Positions 15,801-36,500 of a stretch of 64,000 bases of DNA are shown piece by piece. The position numbers were made by a program, and so were the translations under genes. Source of the stretch: Odontesthes bonariensis. Taxonomy: Eukaryota > Chordata > Actinopteri > Atheriniformes > Atherinopsidae. Under the pieces are notes generated by a model. The model ran no database searches and was not told the origin of the DNA. It worked only from the letters and a program-made list of their open reading frames with translations. The DNA is taken from assembly GCF_027942865.1 (NCBI RefSeq), contig NC_134508.1, positions 32,299,466-32,363,465 on the forward strand, read 5' to 3'. Every line of letters begins with the position of its first letter. Positions within the stretch are counted from its first letter, which is position 1.

Positions 15801-18800
15801 CTTCTGTGTAAAAGTTTCAAGAAGCAATGGATCTGTTCAATATGTAATGCATAGTTTTTTGTTTGTTTATGTTTGTTTGTTTGTTTGCTTGTTTCGGCAC
15901 TCACATTCTTAATGCATAGCCTCTTTATTGAGCACATATCAGCAGGGTGGTTTCCTGCACACTGCTCTTTAAAAAAAAGCTATTTTCCTGTAGTTCTGTG
16001 ACTTGCACAGATAATCCTTTCCATCTGTGAAGTGGTGCTACCTGACATATCTAACATTTAGAGATGTAATTATTAACTGGTAAAAAAAAAAATGAGCATA
16101 AAAAATTGAGGTGAGCTTGTTTAAAGTACTTGTTTTTAAGTCTTAGTATTGTTCAGTTTCGTGAAAACCTTTTTGAAACTTTGAAAAGCACTGGAGTCAC
16201 TTACCTGGCCCACTTAACAGTGGTGTCTCAGCACGATGCCGTATATTACATAAAACGAAAACACTGACTTTAAGTATCCTAATACCAACCAGATGTTTTG
16301 GGAAAAAAAGGCTGAAGGGATGAACTGAGATCACAACTACAGAATGTCACTGTCCAATTTGAGTAATAAAACAGATATTTGATTTACGATTCAAATACAC
16401 CATTTATTGTGCTAAACACTGTAGCAAATCACTAAAAGATGTGTACAGTCTGCTTTAATCGTTTCCAGAATCGCTTTAATTGTGAAAACGTAGATTAACT
16501 TTGGTTTCATTCAGCCTCAGATTTTGAAGTCCTGAAAGTTTACTTTGTACATTTCTGTTTTGCCAGTCTCAAACAAGTTTTTATCTTTCTCAGTCTTTTT
16601 CCTAGTATTCAGTATTTACTTATTTGCAAAAAGAATGTTGCAAAAAAAAGTTGTCCACCCTCTGGCCCCCAGCTAAAGAGATTGAGAGTGACAGTTGGAT
16701 GGGGGTCGAACTGGCATTGTTCTCTCGCTGCCATCCTCTGTTGGGATGGTCGGCAGCAGGTGCTGTTTGTCCGTTGACTGCGGGGTCACACTGTGGTGTT
16801 GTTTTGGGAGAAGGGCTGCCAGGTGGCAGTTGTTGGCAGAGACAGTTATGGCTTTGTGTTTCCTCCAAGAGTCTCTGCCCTTTTCAGCTGCCCCTTTTGC
16901 CCCTCCATAACCAACGACCCCCTTCCCAACCTAGTGGCCCTCACCCCTGCCCTAACCCTTGCTTTTCCCAAAGCTGGGAGTCAATATGAGCATGTGTGTG
17001 CTCACCCGAGCTCCGGCTGTGTTCGCAGGCCCAATCAGACTGGCTAGCACAGATGTGACAGGCTTACAGGAATGCTAGGAATGCGGAGGCGCTGGAGCGG
17101 GTGTGTCCATCCTTGGCCCAGGGCAGAAGGGGAGGAGCTGCCTCGGTATCGGCAGACAGCTCAGCTCTGCTGTGCTGGCCGACTGCCGGACTGACTGGTT
17201 GGCTAGTATGGTGAGTGCTGCAAGCCTGCTGGAGATGGCCTGCAGTACTTTTATGGTAATTGCACTAACCAGAGCCTTCTGGAGGCCGAGTGCTAAAGAG
17301 TGCATGAAAACACAGGACTTGTTTCTCCTGTCATTATGTGTCTGGAAGGACCTTAAACCTCTGAAACACTCGCTGTGCTGCGTGTCTGTACTGCATGTGT
17401 TGAAGAATCTTGACCAATTTTGTCAGTGTAATTTCTGTCAGCAAGTTTAGAATCATTATTCATAATGATATAGTGGTTCAACCTCTTCCTTTGGCCCGAC
17501 TTTCAGCCACAGAAACCCAGCAAGCGTGACTTGGCAGAGAAGAAAACTCAAAAAGCCTGATGGTCTCACTTTCCTTCGAGACAACATAATGCAGCTTTTT
17601 GTGCTTCTCGTACACCAAAGATGAGTTTTGTTTGATCACAGCTACGGTTTGTTTGAAAGCCAGTATTTGTGAAATACTATGCACAGCAATGAATGTAAAA
17701 AGAATCATGAAAGCCCCGGAATAGATGCCTGGGTTCTGCGCAACCTGTTTGTGCAGAATTTCGAGTGTAGATGTTATGTCATGAAAAACATGTTTCTGTT
17801 TTCTAAGCACTCTTTGTAATTAGGCAGCATGGCTACGTGAGCAGACATTAAGGCGGTGTGAAACACGCTAATGAGAACTCAAAGGCAATGCAAGGAAACC
17901 TAACCTTAAATAGCTGATCATTGTAAAAATGTGAAAACAGAGGTGTTGTCGCCAAAGATATCAAGAGTGCCACCCTATGTCCAAATTAGGATATTGTCAG
18001 TAATGTGCAGATGTTCAGTAACTGTCTTTTATTGCTTTTTTCTCTGTTTTTTTTATTTTTTATAGGTCGCAATGAATTGATAGCGAGGTACATCAAGTTA
18101 AGGACAGGCAAAACCCGCACAAGAAAGCAGGTAAACAACTTGTTTAGAACATTCACATGTTTTGTTTTAGCTGCTTGCAGGGCAATATCTAACAAATGTG
18201 CCACCAAAAAGGTGAAAATTATGCACTAGATCCAAACCAATCTCTTTTTTTTTGTCCTTTGTAAGTTTTTTAAAGGATAAATCTGGTTTTACTGTACTGT
18301 ACATTTCTTTCAACAAATCCTGTGAAAAAAATCCTGTTTCTTTGACTTCCTTAACCTGCTTGTGGAATTGATCATCCAACAGTTCTGAAATGCCAATTTT
18401 CGAGGAACGTGTCTAAAATTAATAGCTTCATTCCAACACAATTTCCTAAAACAGTGGGAATTGTAGCTTTTTGGCCAAAATTAATCAAACAAAAGTAGTC
18501 AGTGCTTTTTTTGACAACTATTTACAGTAATAATTAATACACATTTACAACCGCAGGAAGGTGTCTGTGGGACTGACTCACAATAAACGACTGCACACAT
18601 GTTTATTGAATGAACATCTAGTGTGGCCATCTGATACAGTATCATTTTTAACAAGATGGGGTTGTCTTAAATGAGTCTTCTCATAAACGACCCCTTAGGT
18701 AAATATAATGACCTTAAATAATATGAGACCTCTAGTGGCTGTGAGAGAAGCTGCATGTGAAGTAGCAAAATGGTGTCCATTAAGGTTACGGTGGTTTAGC

Positions 18801-21800
18801 ACAAAGAATGAGTTTGTTTTTTTAACCCTAACCAAGTAGTGTCTTTTTTAAACCTAACCCAGAAGTCCATTTAGACAATCCATTATTGTCTAAATCCAAA
18901 CAGGAAGTGACTATATTGTTTATGTTGACTGAACATAACTTAATTGCCCCATCCAGCTCTTCTACTTTCTTCTTAAGAGGAAATTGTAAATATTAAATTA
19001 AACTTTTAGAATGATGTTTGCTCAAATGTGCAAACTAGGGATTTCCACGTCTGATCTCAAGTGTCCCATCGGGACGTTGTTTTTTAAAGATCATCTCTGG
19101 GTCCTTGAGTTAACTTCAACTCCGGATTTCTGTTATTTTTACATGCTGCAACTGCGACATTCACTGTATGGTAATTAGCATGTGGCTAATTTTCTCATTA
19201 TGAATTTTTATGACTATATCATTGTTAAAATGCACACAGTAGTTCTATTCCTTGTATGAGTAAAATAGCTGCAACTCACCAACATCACTGAATTAATGAG
19301 AGACAGTGGTATAATGCGAGACCACGACAGAGACCTACTAACTATATTTAATGTCATCACGGTACAAACGTTGTGATGACGCAAATGTTACGGAAAGAAG
19401 GCCATTTGATAAAATGTGCTTATTTCCACATGTCTCAGTTTCTCTTCTGCAATGTTACATGAACTGTCTCGAATAAAAATCTATGCTGATTTTTATTTAC
19501 ATTGTAATTTTGTAAATATTGTTTGTATGTAAATAACTCGGAGTTTCCTTTTTGTGACCTGTAAAGGTGGTAGTTTAGCAGAAATTATGGGTCATTTGGG
19601 GAAGTTTTAGCTCAATGGGTCATCTTTCACTTGTAAGCCCCAATTTTCCCAAGAGATTTTTTTATAAGCTTGTGAACATCTTTATAGTAGATTTCCAGCA
19701 TTGCTTGTGCAGCACAATCATGAGAATTATCAGGGATTTTGAGTCAATTTTTTACAACATTTAATAGTAATAACACATTTGTTTGAACAAAGCTACGAGT
19801 AGTTTTGGTTCCTGTTTACATCTTAATCTATACTCTAGTCCTCAAAACAACATCTCGGTCAGTGTAATATTTATTCAGAATATTATTACATGTTTACACC
19901 CATGTTATTCACTAAAATTAAAATTCATCTATAGAATTGATTCCCATCTCCATTTAATTTAGGACAGTGTTTAACAAATTCAATCATTGTGGCATTTGAA
20001 ATAGCAGGTACTGCATGTCTGAATTGTGTGAGATTTAGTTTTTTCTGTTGTTACCTTTTTATTAGTTGCACACCATGCACAACTTTGTGACATGGTTGTG
20101 TTTAAGAGTTTACACAAGTTGGTGGTGTTTTCCCTCATGTGGCAGTGTTTTGCTTGCAGTTTTTTTTCTTCCCATTAGCACCATGACAGCTTCTGTTTCG
20201 TGGCACTGGGCTTATTTTTGCTGGCCTCATCGTCCTGTGTAAAGTTTAATTGGTTTGACCTATAAATCCATTCAAACTTATAGATTCTAAACACCTCACT
20301 GAACAGTTGTTTCTTTCTTAGTTGAAGTTTGATTAGTAATTCATTAAGGGTGAGGTGACTGCCTGTGTAAAAGAAGTGTTTTATCAAACATACAGACAAA
20401 ACTGTCATTTAAAATGTGGAATATCATCTAACTTGATGTCTTGATATGTTTGTTGCTCTTGCAAAGAATGCGGTTACACTCAATGTCTCTATCACTATGG
20501 TTGTGTGTGCATGCATGTTATTTTTACGCTCAAAAACTGTCTCACACCCCTTTAGGTGTCTAGTCACATACAGGTGTTAGCGCGGAAGAAAGTTCGTGAA
20601 TACCAGGCGGGTATAAAGGTAGGTGCCGCCGGTCTCCCGGCAACACTGACTGGGCTTCTCTTTCCTCTTTGGTTACGGCTTCTCCCTTTCTTTTCTTGTC
20701 TTTTTTTTCTCCCTGTCTCCTTTCCTCTTCCCTCCTCTTGGCTATTCTCCTGTGCAGGTTTCTAGCCACTTGCAGGTTCTCGCCCGGAGAAAATCTCGCG
20801 AGATCCAGTCAAAGCTAAAGGTATGCGCTTCACCGCGGCCTCGGCGGGGCTCGTACAGGCTTGGCTTTGCACTAACCAGCTCATTTGTGAATCTGATTAT
20901 CAGTCCTTGCTTTTGATGTGAAGCTTGTAATAAGTAGATGCATGCTCGCAATGCAGAAAACAGTTCTTAACAGTTCTTAACAGTATGTTACAATCCTGCT
21001 TCTGTGCATGCAGTGCACCAACACACAAGGCTTTTTAACTCGCACTGTAGGTCTGAGCCCCATTAAAAATAAAGCTAATCCCTAAAATGAAAGTATAATA
21101 TCTGTTTCTGTAGTGCTTGTTTTAAATGAATGCAATGCAAACTGCTATGATGGTCCCAAAGAAATATATTTTAGCTGCATGTTACTCCAGCTCAGTATGT
21201 ATCCACTGTGCCAGCCAGCTTCTGCACCACACTACGCTCTTCTGGCACTTAATCTCCTAAAACTGTCTTTTACTTTTATTTCTTGAGTTCCTTTATTGTA
21301 TCTATTTGTAATGTCCTCTGTAACTCAATGTAAAATTAATCTTTCAATGGTTCATTGTGTGACTCTATTTTTACTTGTCTTTCTTTAAATTCCTCTGGAC
21401 TCTTCATGCTTTTTACCATTTTTGCATATTCACAAATACATAATTAATGCAGAGACTGCTAAATACTACAGTTACTGTATTCAGTGATGCTAACCTCAAC
21501 TCAGATTAACCTCTTAATGCAGACTAATCTTGTCGGGGAGAGCAGTATCCATGGTGGTCATGATTTAGCTTAAATTGGTTACATGCTGTATGCAGTGTGG
21601 TGCACTGGTGTTTAACCTTAAAAGTAAATGTTTGCATCACTTTCCTTGGATCAAATCTGTCAAGGTGTCCAAATGCTGAGTATAAACATCCTTTCTCCTT
21701 TAACCTCCTCCTTCAATCATGACAGAGTTAGCAGGGCTCTTAAAAATGCTTTTGAACAGAAGGAATATTCCAATAATCACTCACAAGAGCCAAAAAAAAA

Positions 21801-24800
21801 GGCTTTTTTTCTGTTAGATTAGAAAACATCAGTAACCTGTCTTCCCTGTCTTGTTAAGAACGCATATATTTAATATTTCTCAACTATATTTCATGCTCAT
21901 GTGTGAAAGTCCATTCACAGTTATGTAGGGATAACCTTAATGTTATTTTCACTTAAGATTTAATTTAATAAAGTAATTGGGTTTGTAATGCTTTATTAGT
22001 TCAATTTTGTTGAACAGTTCTGTCACTTTGTTTCTGTGGACAAGACATTTGATTCGGTTTTTGCTTGTTTTTGGACCTTTTTAAATATTGATGAACACCA
22101 AGTGAGGTGAACATGCAGATGTAGCCACTACGACACCCTGTTGAAGAGTTTGTGAATTAAAAATAGATTTCTTGTAACTTAAAATCCTTAAAAAACTGCG
22201 TTTCCATGCCACTTTCCAAGCCAGTGATCAAGTATGACAGCTGAAATGGATTCTGACTCTGTCACAGCTGTACATCTGATAGAATACACCGAAGTCTTGT
22301 GTTGTAATAAACCGCCAAAGATGCGACTTCCTTCAGATTTTCATTCTGTTGATTTTTCTTTTCTAATACTTTTTAGTCTCGTTAACACCTTACTGGTGTC
22401 CAATAAGAAAAAAGGCTGCCTCTTGTTTCCCTAAGTCCCCACTGAGCCTCATAACTGTTAACCAAAGCAAACTGCCATTCATGGTGTGTTTGAAACATTT
22501 GGTTGTGTCACATCATATTCACATATCAAGTTTATTTTGCCAAGAATATTTATCTCTCAACGTGATTTAGAACTGCACAGTACTAATGGTTTCTTTCTTT
22601 TTTGATTCAGGCGATGAATTTGGTAAGTGAATTTGGCTTGTGCAATATGCTTCCCTCCTCCCCTTTGTTTGGCAGCACTAGTGCACTGTCCCTTTGCTAT
22701 GGCCCTCTGCTGGCATGGCGTCGCGTCCCATAGCTATCCCGTAATGAAGCAATGCTTAGGAAACGGTTCAGAACACTGCGCTGCTGCACATCCTGCCTGA
22801 TGTAGCATAATCGCCCCTCAGCCTTTAGACAAATTCTTGCTTGCTTTGCAAAAGGTGGCGTTCTCTGATACGGGGCCTCGCTTCTGACAAATCTTTTCTT
22901 TAATATCAAAATCAGAGCCTTTTGGTTAAAGAACAAATATATGGCGAACAAAGTAAAGAGAGGATGATAATACATTTTTAAACGTCATTTGGTGCGTTTA
23001 CGAATGAGAAACTGTGTGTCACACATTGTTTCAAATTAACTCCTCCGTGCGATTTGGATGTGAATTGGCTGGCCTTGGATATCTTATGTGCTGCACTCTC
23101 AGTGCTTGCGTAGCAAACGTTGAATTTTTCTGTTTACTCTCAGATTATGCAAATTAAATCAATTTGTTACATTTTTTTTCTGAGGTGATCTTTGTAACAT
23201 ACTGACTGACTGTTGGAGTAACGCTGCTTCATTTTCTCTGCTCTGCTCTCTACTTCATACTAAAAGCTGCTTCATCATCAGAACAATACTGTAGAATAAC
23301 ATAGCAATAACGTACTGTTCAAATAAGTTCATGTGAAGCTCATTTTTACAGTTAAATATATTCATTTTAGACGTTTGTCAAACACATTGCATAGTTGATT
23401 ATGATTAGGTTATGCTGCCACCTTGTGGTTGACTCCCCCCATTTCTCTTTGTAAAATTGTAGGATCAGGCATCTAAAGACAAAGCCTTGCAGAACATGGC
23501 GGCACTGTCGTCAGCACAGATCGTCTCCCCAAGCATGATAAAGAATCACCTTCCGCCACTGTCGCCTGCCCCATACCAACCAGCCAGAGTGAGACCACAA
23601 TTCAGCAAATGATCATTTTTATGCAGTTGTAAGACAGCAAATGCATTTTACCTTATTTCTCATCTTCCAGTTCTGGCCTGCTCCAATCCCAGTACAGGCT
23701 GGACCATCTCAGGAGTAAGTAAAGCCCTCTGCTGAACCCCCCAGATCTTTTTGGTATGAAGTCAGTATGTGTGCAGTTTGTGAACAGAGGACTTGGTGCA
23801 GGATATAAGTAAATGCAAGAATTAATGAGTGAATCAGTGACCCGTTTAGGTTTTATTATCAGGTGGGTATTGCAGGGTATATTTAATGAATCACATTTTT
23901 CAACGCCAGGATGGTTCTAGATTTCAACCCGGGAAGGACTCCTGGGCTCGGCCGCACCAGCCATGCGTAAGTTCCCCCTAGCCCAGGCTCAACTGTGAGC
24001 ACAAAGCAGCACTAACTCCCCCTTCACATTGTATTGTACTGTATGTTTCCTGCACTGATGTAAAGCACCACAAATTAACTGCTTCAGATTTGATCTAGAA
24101 AAACAGATCAGATAAATCTTTCTGGTGTTTGATGACCTGAAAAAATATTTGGTGAAATTTAATTGAGTAGCCAGTAAACTAAATAAGTGGTGCTGTTTTG
24201 CATCATTAAGAAGTGTTGAAGCAGGTGGACTTACGCCTAGCTGGTGCAGCAACACATGCTTTCTTTTTAACACTAACAAATCTGCACAATAAAGACCAGA
24301 GATATAAACATAGTAGGACCCGTTAGAAACGAACATTTGATAACCAAGGTCTGTACCTGACTGGATCATTTGTTGTCTTTCAGCATAAAACCTTTTGTAC
24401 AGTCCCCATACCAAAGCCTACCAGGTCCTGTACAACAACCCATACCAGGTAAGTTAAAGTAAAATCAGAGAAATTTCTTCAGGCAATGAAAACAGATTGT
24501 TTTTTTATTAATGAACATGTGTTTGTTGGTGCAGCTTATGAGCCTTTGGCGCCCCCTCCTGCACCAACAGCTACTGCAGTTCCAGTGTGGCAGGATCGAA
24601 CAATCGCTTCCTCAAAGCTGCGAATGCTAGAGTACTCAGCTTTTATGGAGGTCCAGAGAGACCTAGACAACGTAAGTTAAATATATTTCATTAGAGAAGT
24701 TGATGTCTGTTTAAGCCAGAGAGGGTTTGGTACCAGCCCCAAGTGGCCCTCAGAGGGATTACAATTTAACAATTTTACATTTTTTGGCTCCAACAGAAAT

Positions 24801-33534: not shown

Positions 33535-36500
33535 ATGGCTAACACGGAGTGTATCAGTGTGCAAGTCTTCTCCCTGAACTGTTGGTCAGTGCCTGTGGTT
33601 TGTAGAAATTCTCAATGCGTTGCTTTTCATGTCGATACATGTGCAGGTTTGCCAAACAAAAATTCACCGTCTGTACTTTGTTTTGTTTCTCAGGGGGATC
33701 CGCTACCTAAGCAAACACTGTCCTCAGCGCTATCACATGATCGGAGAAATGTTGTGCAAGGAAGAACATGATATTGTTTTACTGCAAGAGGTTGGAGGAA
33801 ACTGTCTTACAAAGTTTTGAAGCTGCAGAGTCACTTATCAGATTGACCGTGTCAGCCTTCTCTTTTGATAAAAGCGATCTTACTTAAAGGGATAGTTCGG
33901 GATATTTGACATGAATCTGTATGGCATCACCATAACCAGTGTCGTGCATTCAAACTGACTTACCCCCGACAGTGTCCTGTGAGCCGAGTTCTTGTCCAGT
34001 GTTGGTCAAGGCGAAAGTAGTCCGGCTTGTTTGCTGGGGTCAAGAAATTAGCGCGTTTTTCTTCCCAAAACAGTACGTGTGCTAAAGAGTGATTTATTTC
34101 ATCACAAAAACCGAAGCCGGCAAAAGTCACTCCTCGTTATCACTTGGGCCCTACTGTCTCTCGTTGTGTATCAGTGCGCCCGTCATTCTGACCGCGAGCT
34201 GTGCGCACGAGTTCACTTTGTTTACTTCTCGGGAAGATGTCTGACAACGAGAGCGACGAGGAACATATTGACTTCCGTTCAGAGCCAAGGGGGTATCTTT
34301 ATGAACCCGTTTATACTGAGGAGGAAGTTCGCCAAATGGACTTAGATCGGGCAGAAAGAGAGAGGGTGGACAGAGAAGTGATGGAAACAGAAGCTGGAGC
34401 CACTGCTGGAGCTGCGATACCCAGGGTGGCCGACAAATCCTGGTGCACTTGTTTGAAGTGCGAAGTAATGCAGACAGAGGTGGAATGTTACTGCTGCCAC
34501 GAGTGGGATTTAGTTATGCCCCAGATACAAAACCTTTCCATAGATTAGGATGTCGGCGGCCGTGGGACAGCTGCTGCCTGCATCACAAATAACGGTGACT
34601 TCCCTGCACTCCTGAATGCAGGCGTCTTGAGAACTTTTTTCCATGTTCCCAAGATCAACTGGAAGAGGCGTCCCAGACCAGCTGGACCCGATGGCCAGTT
34701 GTCTGCAGAGTAAGTGTTGAGCACTGCCAAAGAACAGAAAGACTCGTGCGCACAGCTCGCGGTCAGAATGACGTGCGCACTGATACACAATGAGAGACAG
34801 TATAGGGCCCAAGTGATAACGAGGAGTGACTTTTGCCGGCTTCGGTTTTTGTGATGAAATAAATCACTCTTTAGCACACGTACTGTTTTGGGAAGAAAAA
34901 CGCGCTAATTTCTTGACCCCAGCAAACAAGCCGGACTACTTTCGCCTTGACCAACACTGGACAAGAACTCGGCTCACAGGACACTGTCGGGGGTAAGTCA
35001 GTTTGAATGCACGACACTGGTTATGGTGATGCCATACAGATTCATGTCAAATATCCCGAACTATCCCTTTAATGTCACAGTTTATCATGCGAAGATGTTA
35101 TAGATGAATATTATATTTTTAACTGAAATATGAATTATTTTTCAGGTGTGGAGTGAGAAGGACTATCTCTACTTGAAAAAGAAGCTTGCCACTTGTCATC
35201 CTCACTCTCATTACTTTAAAAGGTAACATCTCTACTCCAGCATGTGGAAATTCTTAACTCTGAACGTCTTTTACTCTTAAGTTCATGAGACGACTGTCAT
35301 ATCTTCAAAGGCCAGTTCTGTCTGGAGGTCAGAAAAGCGTACCTGCAAGGTACTGATTAGTCTGCAAAATGTAACTGAAGCCAAGAAGTTTCATGAAAGG
35401 ATTATTTTTTGCTGCTTAATTCTTTCTTGACCTTCATACCAAGGCTGTGATTAATCAAGAGGTCTTTCCCCTAATCTCCTCACAAATGTCAAATTAAATA
35501 CGTTTGTTTTCTCATCTCCTGCAGTCTTAAGACGAGAACGACACTAATTTGATGTACAGTATGTCGTCATGTAAACCAACTGGTTTTATATTTAATTTTA
35601 GTAACTAATAATAAGAGAAAAAAATACAACATTTGATTACGCCTTACTTTTTCTCTCCTTTTCTCTCTCAGTGGCGTCATAGGCAGCGGACTGGCCATTT
35701 TCTCTAAACACAGAATCCGTGACACGTTTCTTTATCGCTACTCACTGAATGGCTATCCTTACATGGTAAGTCTGCAGGGCTTTAGACATGCAAAACAGTG
35801 TTTTGTGCAAGTGTTGAAGAATTATCCCAAACTTCGGGTTCATACTGGAAGTGAGGCATGTGCAGAATTTCATAATTTGCAGCCACCAGGCCACCAGGCC
35901 ACAGTAAAATGCACATGTTGCCCTCATATCTGCAACTAAGCACCTTTCACTGTAGTTTACAGAAATACAAGATGCAGCTTATCTGTTATGATGATGGCAA
36001 TGAGGGATTTTTAGTTAGTTTCAGCAGTTGCGTCGTTCTGCTCTCAAATTGCAGCTGTGCAACTTTTGAATACTATGGTTTGCATAAAACTCTGTGTGAA
36101 AGGTCATTATTAGAGGCATCGTTATGTTAAAACAAACAATAATGTGGGTAGCTGCTGTGCCGCAGCAGAAAGGCTGTTGGTGTGGTTACAGACGTGTCTG
36201 TGATGCAGCAGTTCAGCAAAACACAGGCCACAAACATGTGACGTGTGATGAGTCTTGTTTAGCAACGTTCATGCTTCCAGTTTAATGAGTTTGAGCAGAA
36301 TTTACATGAACATAAATAAAAGAATATCTATAAATACATGCAGCCTTGCATTTATACTCTCACATACAATGAGACGGTGATACAATTCTATACAGACCAA
36401 ACAACCCTACATTCATTCATCAAGTTAAATGTATTAATACTTTGATGTAAAAGTACAATGTTTTAGGGGAAAAGGCCCACATTGATGCTTTAAGTAAAGC

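Follow-up and report, generated by a model that had tools for sequence, protein, structure and literature searches.

A tandem exon pair in fish tead3, probably ancient and spliced in a mutually exclusive manner

The tead3 gene within a 64,000-nt stretch of the Odontesthes bonariensis genome (contig NC_134508.1; this whole stretch is called the window here) contains two homologous adjacent exons, a and b, which have equal phase, are interchangeable in frame and possess separate splice sites each. We think it likely that they represent an ancient, tandem-duplicated and mutually exclusive pair that is older than the separation of TEAD1 and TEAD3. In the proposed mechanism both exons would be used in mRNA, each transcript would take either a or b and normally not both, and one gene would give rise to two factors whose sole differences lie in the distal part of the recognition helix and in the basic tail (exon residues 11-20, and in tead3 also residue 5).

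The exon pair and its reading frames

Exon a is located at 20556..20618 and exon b at 20758..20820 of the forward strand, which also carries the other exons and motifs of the gene given below. Both are 63 nt long, in phase 0 and bounded by their own AG and GT sites, and the intron between them (20619..20757) comprises 139 nt. A first-pass annotation of the sequence had already given these coordinates, lengths, phases and splice sites, and they proved exact to the base; the spacing of both exons in the window gene was verified as well, and the identity was reproduced with 41 of 63 bases and 14 of 21 residues (67%). Exon a, which was also found by peptide search, is of the TEAD3 type with a valine at residue 13, and exon b is of the TEAD1/2 type with the sequence RRKS at residues 10-13. 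The preceding exon 3 (18066..18130), recognized by its Pfam TEA match, ends in frame with either of them according to a frame check, and the next coding exon, the DQ exon, follows in phase 0 at 23463..23588, its end being taken from the sequence.

From exon 3 (18130) to the DQ exon (23463) six splice combinations were considered, namely a or b, each with or without a 12-nt microexon at 22611..22622, as well as both exons and neither exon, and every one of them is open and in frame. The choice between a and b would be combinable with the downstream microexon of four residues. The TEA/ATTS profile of Pfam scores the a form with 99.4 bits and the b form with 98.4 bits (cut-off 25.1), and skipping of both exons lowers the match to 74.6 bits.

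Gene identity and the TEAD genes of the genome

Judged by sequence comparison, the gene in the window is TEAD3. The top seven PDB matches of its C-terminal domain are all TEF-5, with 434 to 426 bits, and the best TEF-1 chain reaches 405 bits. We take TEF-5 to be TEAD3, TEF-1 to be TEAD1 and TEF-3 to be TEAD4. The Pfam TEA profile, applied to the genome (945 Mb), yielded ten exon matches in five TEAD genes, which are labeled here as C3 (the window tead3), C15 (a second tead3), C1 and C12B (two tead1 copies) and C12A (tead4); their best PDB matches are TEF-5 for C3 and C15, TEF-1 for C1 and C12B, and TEF-3 for C12A. Two copies each of tead1 and tead3 are in keeping with a ray-finned fish, and zebrafish likewise possesses Tead1a, Tead1b, Tead3a and Tead3b, as stated in the accessible text of a study in that species (PMC6759317).

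Whole-genome searches with the exon-a peptide and with the exon-b peptide led to the identical eight places, three of them a and five b, where scores are given to the best candidates only (8 of 8 in this case). A direct scan of the gene regions found a followed by b in C3, C15 and C1, and b without a in C12A tead4 and C12B tead1. A loss of the exon-b frame, which the first-pass annotation had named as a refuting condition, is not seen inside this genome, where exon b is intact in all five TEAD genes. Exon 3 and exon a are separated by introns of very different size, which have only 174 nt in C15 tead3 but some 3.6 kb in C1 tead1 and about 2.4 kb in the window. Candidate relics of exon a were rejected in both genes that lack it: in C12B the highest-scoring local match falls within an intron (near CCATGG), with a score that 8 of 200 shuffles attain, and in C12A the best score is equalled in 160 of 200 shuffles.

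As to the surroundings of the gene, 10 of 49 listed reading frames were compared with Pfam, and none of these gave a match above the curated cut-off. One reading frame (34192-34548) shows a weak match to P2RX7_C, the P2X7 intracellular domain, with 17.5 bits, below the cut-off of 23.5. A scan of the window for tRNA and RNA families gave no tRNA and no family at gathering score.

What the exon exchange changes in the protein

Exons a and b have the core VSSH[IL]QVLA in common, with an I/L difference between a and b at residue 5 in tead3. Five columns part all three a exons from all five b exons, namely column 11 (K in a, R in b), column 13 (V in a, S or A in b), column 18 (A in a, S or V in b), column 19 (A, G or S in a, K in b) and column 20 (I in a, L in b). 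The Pfam TEA match stops nine residues into the exon, and all five separating columns are found beyond this boundary. The earlier description of the exons as encoding the recognition-helix end of the TEA domain can therefore be kept in part: the distal end of the helix is exchanged, together with a basic tail, but the shared core is unchanged. The assignment of types stands, as exon b resembles TEAD1 and TEAD4 chains in the PDB search, and exon a is like human TEAD3. When the a form was used as PDB query, five distinct DNA-binding-domain sequences were obtained, which are of TEAD1 or TEAD4 and hence of the b type, and no solved structure of an a form was among the matches to this query. In functional terms, the exchange would most likely act by changing how the tail contacts DNA, couples to cofactors or responds to kinases.

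Kinase sensitivity was the effect favored in the first-pass annotation, where the exon choice was thought to provide a switch by protein kinase A (PKA). R-R-x-S is the substrate form of PKA, and in the window pair it is present in exon b (RRKS) and missing from exon a (RKKV). According to this idea, which is compatible with an exclusive use of both exons, the pair would be kept for the reason that b adds an RRKS site able to shut off DNA binding, and the a form with its valine would be kinase-blind. The PKA site of TEAD1 is Ser102, and in human TEAD1 the serine of RRKS occupies position 102; RRKS also fits the R-R-x-S form. Residue 13 is valine in all three a exons and serine in four of the five b exons. 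The accessible text of a review states that TEAD loses its normal DNA binding upon phosphorylation by PKA and PKC (PMC6628201). However, exon b of C15 tead3 reads KRKS and does not conform to the strict R-R-x-S form, tead4 (C12A) has RRKA at this place, and four more columns also separate a from b. The difference within the window pair as such is real, but the motif is not strictly kept, which weakens the switch as the purpose of the arrangement, and we regard a PKA switch as a doubtful, though possible, reason for the retention of the pair, one among several.

Splice signals and probable exclusive use

Because double inclusion stays in frame, message decay (NMD) is not able to enforce the exclusion of one exon, and the splicing machinery itself would have to do so. 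We propose that the branch point of b would be too near to the donor of a, which would render the a-b intron unspliceable, as in OGDH. For exons 4a/4b of OGDH, the accessible text of the respective study gives branch points that enforce exclusion at a distance of 25-41 nt from the donor in man and 46 nt in a sunfish, below a threshold of about 50 nt (PMC7969005). The a-b intron measures 139 nt in C3, 110 nt in C15 and 90 nt in C1. Candidate branch sites, recognized by motif, are found at 31 nt (CTGAC) and 57 nt (GGTTAC) from the donor of a in this gene, at 43 nt (AGTCAC) in C15 and at 49 nt (GGTTAC) in C1. The two GGTTAC candidates are at or over the threshold of about 50 nt, and the sole strict yUnAy match in the C15 intron (TTCAT), 93 nt from the donor and 16 nt from the acceptor, would not block splicing.

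These signals have to be weighed against the view that a and b are two cassette exons without exclusivity, in which case a alone, b alone, both and neither would all occur and double inclusion would be normal. All four outcomes preserve the frame, teleost introns of 90-139 nt are spliceable, and both GGTTAC at 57 nt in C3 and TTCAT at 93 nt in C15 are compatible with splicing. On the other hand, a short intron is present in three genes with a branch candidate below 50 nt in each of them (31, 43 and 49 nt), and a portion of the TEA match is gone when neither exon is included (74.6 bits vs 99.4 and 98.4 bits). We consider independent cassette use to be unlikely and continue with mutually exclusive splicing as the preferred reading.

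The sequence in front of exon b is free of AG over 133 nt up to the acceptor in C3, over 68 nt in C15 and over 36 nt in C1, and over 143 nt in C12B, which has no exon a. None of 29 control acceptors from the five TEAD genes (out of 30 attempts) has an AG-free stretch as long as the 133 nt of C3, the maximum being 89 nt, and several very short values among these controls are perhaps due to misplaced acceptors. As the stretch has only 36 nt in C1 and 143 nt in the unpaired C12B, a long AG-free stretch is no marker of the exon pair. The pyrimidine fraction of the last 70 nt of the a-b intron is 0.87 in C3, 0.90 in C15 and 0.71 in C1. The AG-free, pyrimidine-rich tract of 143 nt in C12B may be a leftover of a paired arrangement, or such tracts may be unremarkable.

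With OGDH 4a/4b the TEAD pair shares the tandem-duplicated exons and the short intron, and the long pyrimidine tract of OGDH and its branch sites close to the donor of the first exon, present in fishes too, may have equivalents in the TEAD introns; in OGDH, unlike here, the branch points were mapped and the exclusion was shown by RNA, the two exon lengths do not add up to a multiple of 3 as they do for TEAD, and the TEAD product is a DNA-binding domain (accessible text of PMC7969005). Mutually exclusive exons in man have been assigned to 629 clusters, of which 57 (9%) may have a near-branch-point arrangement (PMC5740500), and a catalogue of substitutions of human tandem duplicated exons contains 236 events that are mostly ancient (PMC9741552), both according to the main text of these papers. 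The TEAD pair resembles the entries of both catalogues in that homologous exons are exchanged within one protein. Words that begin with TEAD do not occur in the main text of either catalogue (PMC9741552, PMC5740500), and human TEAD1 may be contained in their supplementary lists.

In the window gene exon a is preceded, at about 40 nt, by a pair of overlapping GCATG motifs (20509 and 20513, together 20509..20517), which are of the Rbfox type by consensus only. This is a weak indication of an Rbfox site through which a might be repressed, and GCATG is absent from the comparable place in the other two pairs (C15 and C1).

Age of the duplication

Unrooted trees were calculated for the eight exons of this one genome (63 columns, 200 bootstrap replicates), and all a exons are set apart from all b exons with a bootstrap support of 97% for nucleotides and 96% for amino acids. 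Exon a of C1 tead1 is closer to the exon a of tead3 than to the exon b that adjoins it in its own gene. Among the b exons the nucleotide tree has a branching of low support (16 to 42%). Because the exon tree parts all a from all b, the duplication is, by this sequence evidence, older than the TEAD1/TEAD3 split. The suggestion in the first-pass annotation that exon b predates the paralogues is borne out in this way, and exon a is equally old, since C1 tead1 also carries both exons. We infer that exon a was lost in tead4 and in one of the tead1 genes.

A similar picture could arise if tead1 and tead3 had each duplicated the exon separately, or if gene conversion from one gene to another mimicked an old age, and in favor of this possibility it can be said that the first nine residues are almost the same in a and b and that 63 columns are few. 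Yet the split of all a from all b has the high bootstrap values given above, order, phase and length are alike in three genes that also have the five separating columns in common, and conversion within a gene should make a and b alike per gene, which is the reverse of what is observed. A separate origin is thus very improbable compared with a single old duplication.

Selection on both exons

Between C15 and C3 tead3, exon a has 14 synonymous and 2 nonsynonymous differences (pN/pS 0.041; P=6e-8), and exon b has 12.5 synonymous and 2.5 nonsynonymous differences (pN/pS 0.062; P=7e-6), where a nonsynonymous share of about 76-78% would be expected under no selection. Comparisons of the C1 tead1 exons with those of tead3 point in the same direction and are weaker (P between 8e-5 and 2e-3). 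In the two tead3 copies exon a is 75% and exon b 76% identical, and an ungapped comparison of the 60-nt flanks gives 27-48%; when all three gene pairs are considered, identities range from 71 to 81% for the exons and from 25 to 48% for the 60-nt flanks. The exons are no product of chance; both are under strong purifying selection, and they have been retained as protein-coding in both tead3 genes, because synonymous changes dominate and the flanks have diverged. That one of the tead3 exons is an unused remnant, as might be thought because human TEAD3 is usually presented with the a type only, is very improbable in view of pN/pS values of 0.04 (a) and 0.06 (b) between the tead3 copies, intact AG and GT sites of both exons and flanks near chance identity. 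Synonymous rates are unequal, with the C1 vs C3 comparison below most other pairs, and this was dismissed as a sign of exonic splicing signals, the sites being too few.

Relation to human TEAD1 splicing

Among the top literature matches listed, no description of a homologous exon pair in TEAD3 or TEAD1 was found, and five exon-a peptide strings have no occurrence in the literature searched. The statement of the first-pass annotation that the pair is undescribed holds to this extent, but RNA work on human TEAD1 touches possibly the same place (accessible text of PMC12422734 and PMC10325915). According to the accessible text of PMC12422734, human TEAD1 RNAs vary in whether they use an “intronic region” about 90 bases ahead of exon 5, and the gap between a and b in fish C1 tead1 is exactly 90 nt. 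By analogy, the human “intronic region” may be the human exon a, where “about 90 bases” may be the length of the region, and not a distance. By our reading of the forward exon-6 primer, SRDFHSK, human exon 5 is of the b type. An exon 5B of TEAD1 is named in the accessible part of a splicing-drug study (PMC10325915).

The human reports on TEAD1 splicing, with exon 6 as a microexon, RBFOX2 and the region upstream of exon 5, concern the same site of the family, and the fish exon b and the 12-nt microexon match human exons 5 and 6; in their accessible text, however, the upstream region is not called a homologous copy of exon 5, TEAD3-related or exclusive with exon 5 (PMC12422734, PMC10167241, PMC10325915). 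TEAD4-S, an exon-skipped isoform without DNA-binding domain, is likewise due to splicing in the DNA-binding half, but TEAD4-S drops the whole domain and the a/b pair exchanges its tail (accessible text of PMC10167241). Ancient tandem exons in exclusive use are a known kind of arrangement, of which the TEAD pair would be a further case, and a broader proposal of frozen splice choices is outlined in the following section.

Paralogues as possible frozen splice choices

TEADs are the factors through which the Hippo pathway acts on transcription, and the persistence of four paralogues whose DNA-binding domains are nearly the same lacks a settled explanation. We lean, by a small degree, towards the view that a single TEAD gene already made two DNA-binding variants via a mutually exclusive exon pair when the genome duplications of vertebrates had not yet taken place, and that the paralogues then froze one choice each, namely b in TEAD4 and probably TEAD2, whereas a became the prevailing form of TEAD3 in mammals. 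Both variants would still be made by the two tead3 genes and one tead1 gene of the fish, and perhaps by human TEAD1. If this is true, TEAD paralogues are partly frozen splice isoforms, so that paralogue and isoform identity overlap, and the difference between TEAD1 and TEAD3 behind the recognition helix is a fixed splice choice and not the result of accumulated substitutions. A single gene could then switch its DNA affinity or kinase sensitivity through splicing. Textbook TEAD1 would possess a TEAD3-like isoform that has been overlooked, and antibodies, primers and drug work that rely on a single TEAD1 form would not capture the second one.

The downstream microexon

The microexon of the window gene encodes AMNL and was found by a sequence scan. 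A pattern scan of the same kind revealed six candidates, namely SECL and VTSM in C1, PNSD, AMNL and ALYC in C15, and AMNL in C3. The AMNL peptide was chosen for its identity in C15 and C3, and VTSM was chosen in C1 because this peptide is known for TEAD1, so that counterparts of 12 nt are present in both tead3 genes and in C1 tead1. The candidates SECL, PNSD and ALYC are not shared between genes and were rejected, and a further candidate in C1, AVKW, is doubtful, as it is the output of a too narrow pattern. Under the same filter no microexon candidate was found in C12A or C12B, and across the five TEAD genes the absence of exon a and the absence of the microexon coincide. In C3 and C1, and not in C15, the microexon is followed by the motif GCATG at a distance of up to about 250 nt, which is likewise a weak indication of Rbfox control. 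In size and place the fish AMNL microexon agrees with exon 6 of human TEAD1 as given in the accessible text of the human studies (PMC12422734, PMC10167241).
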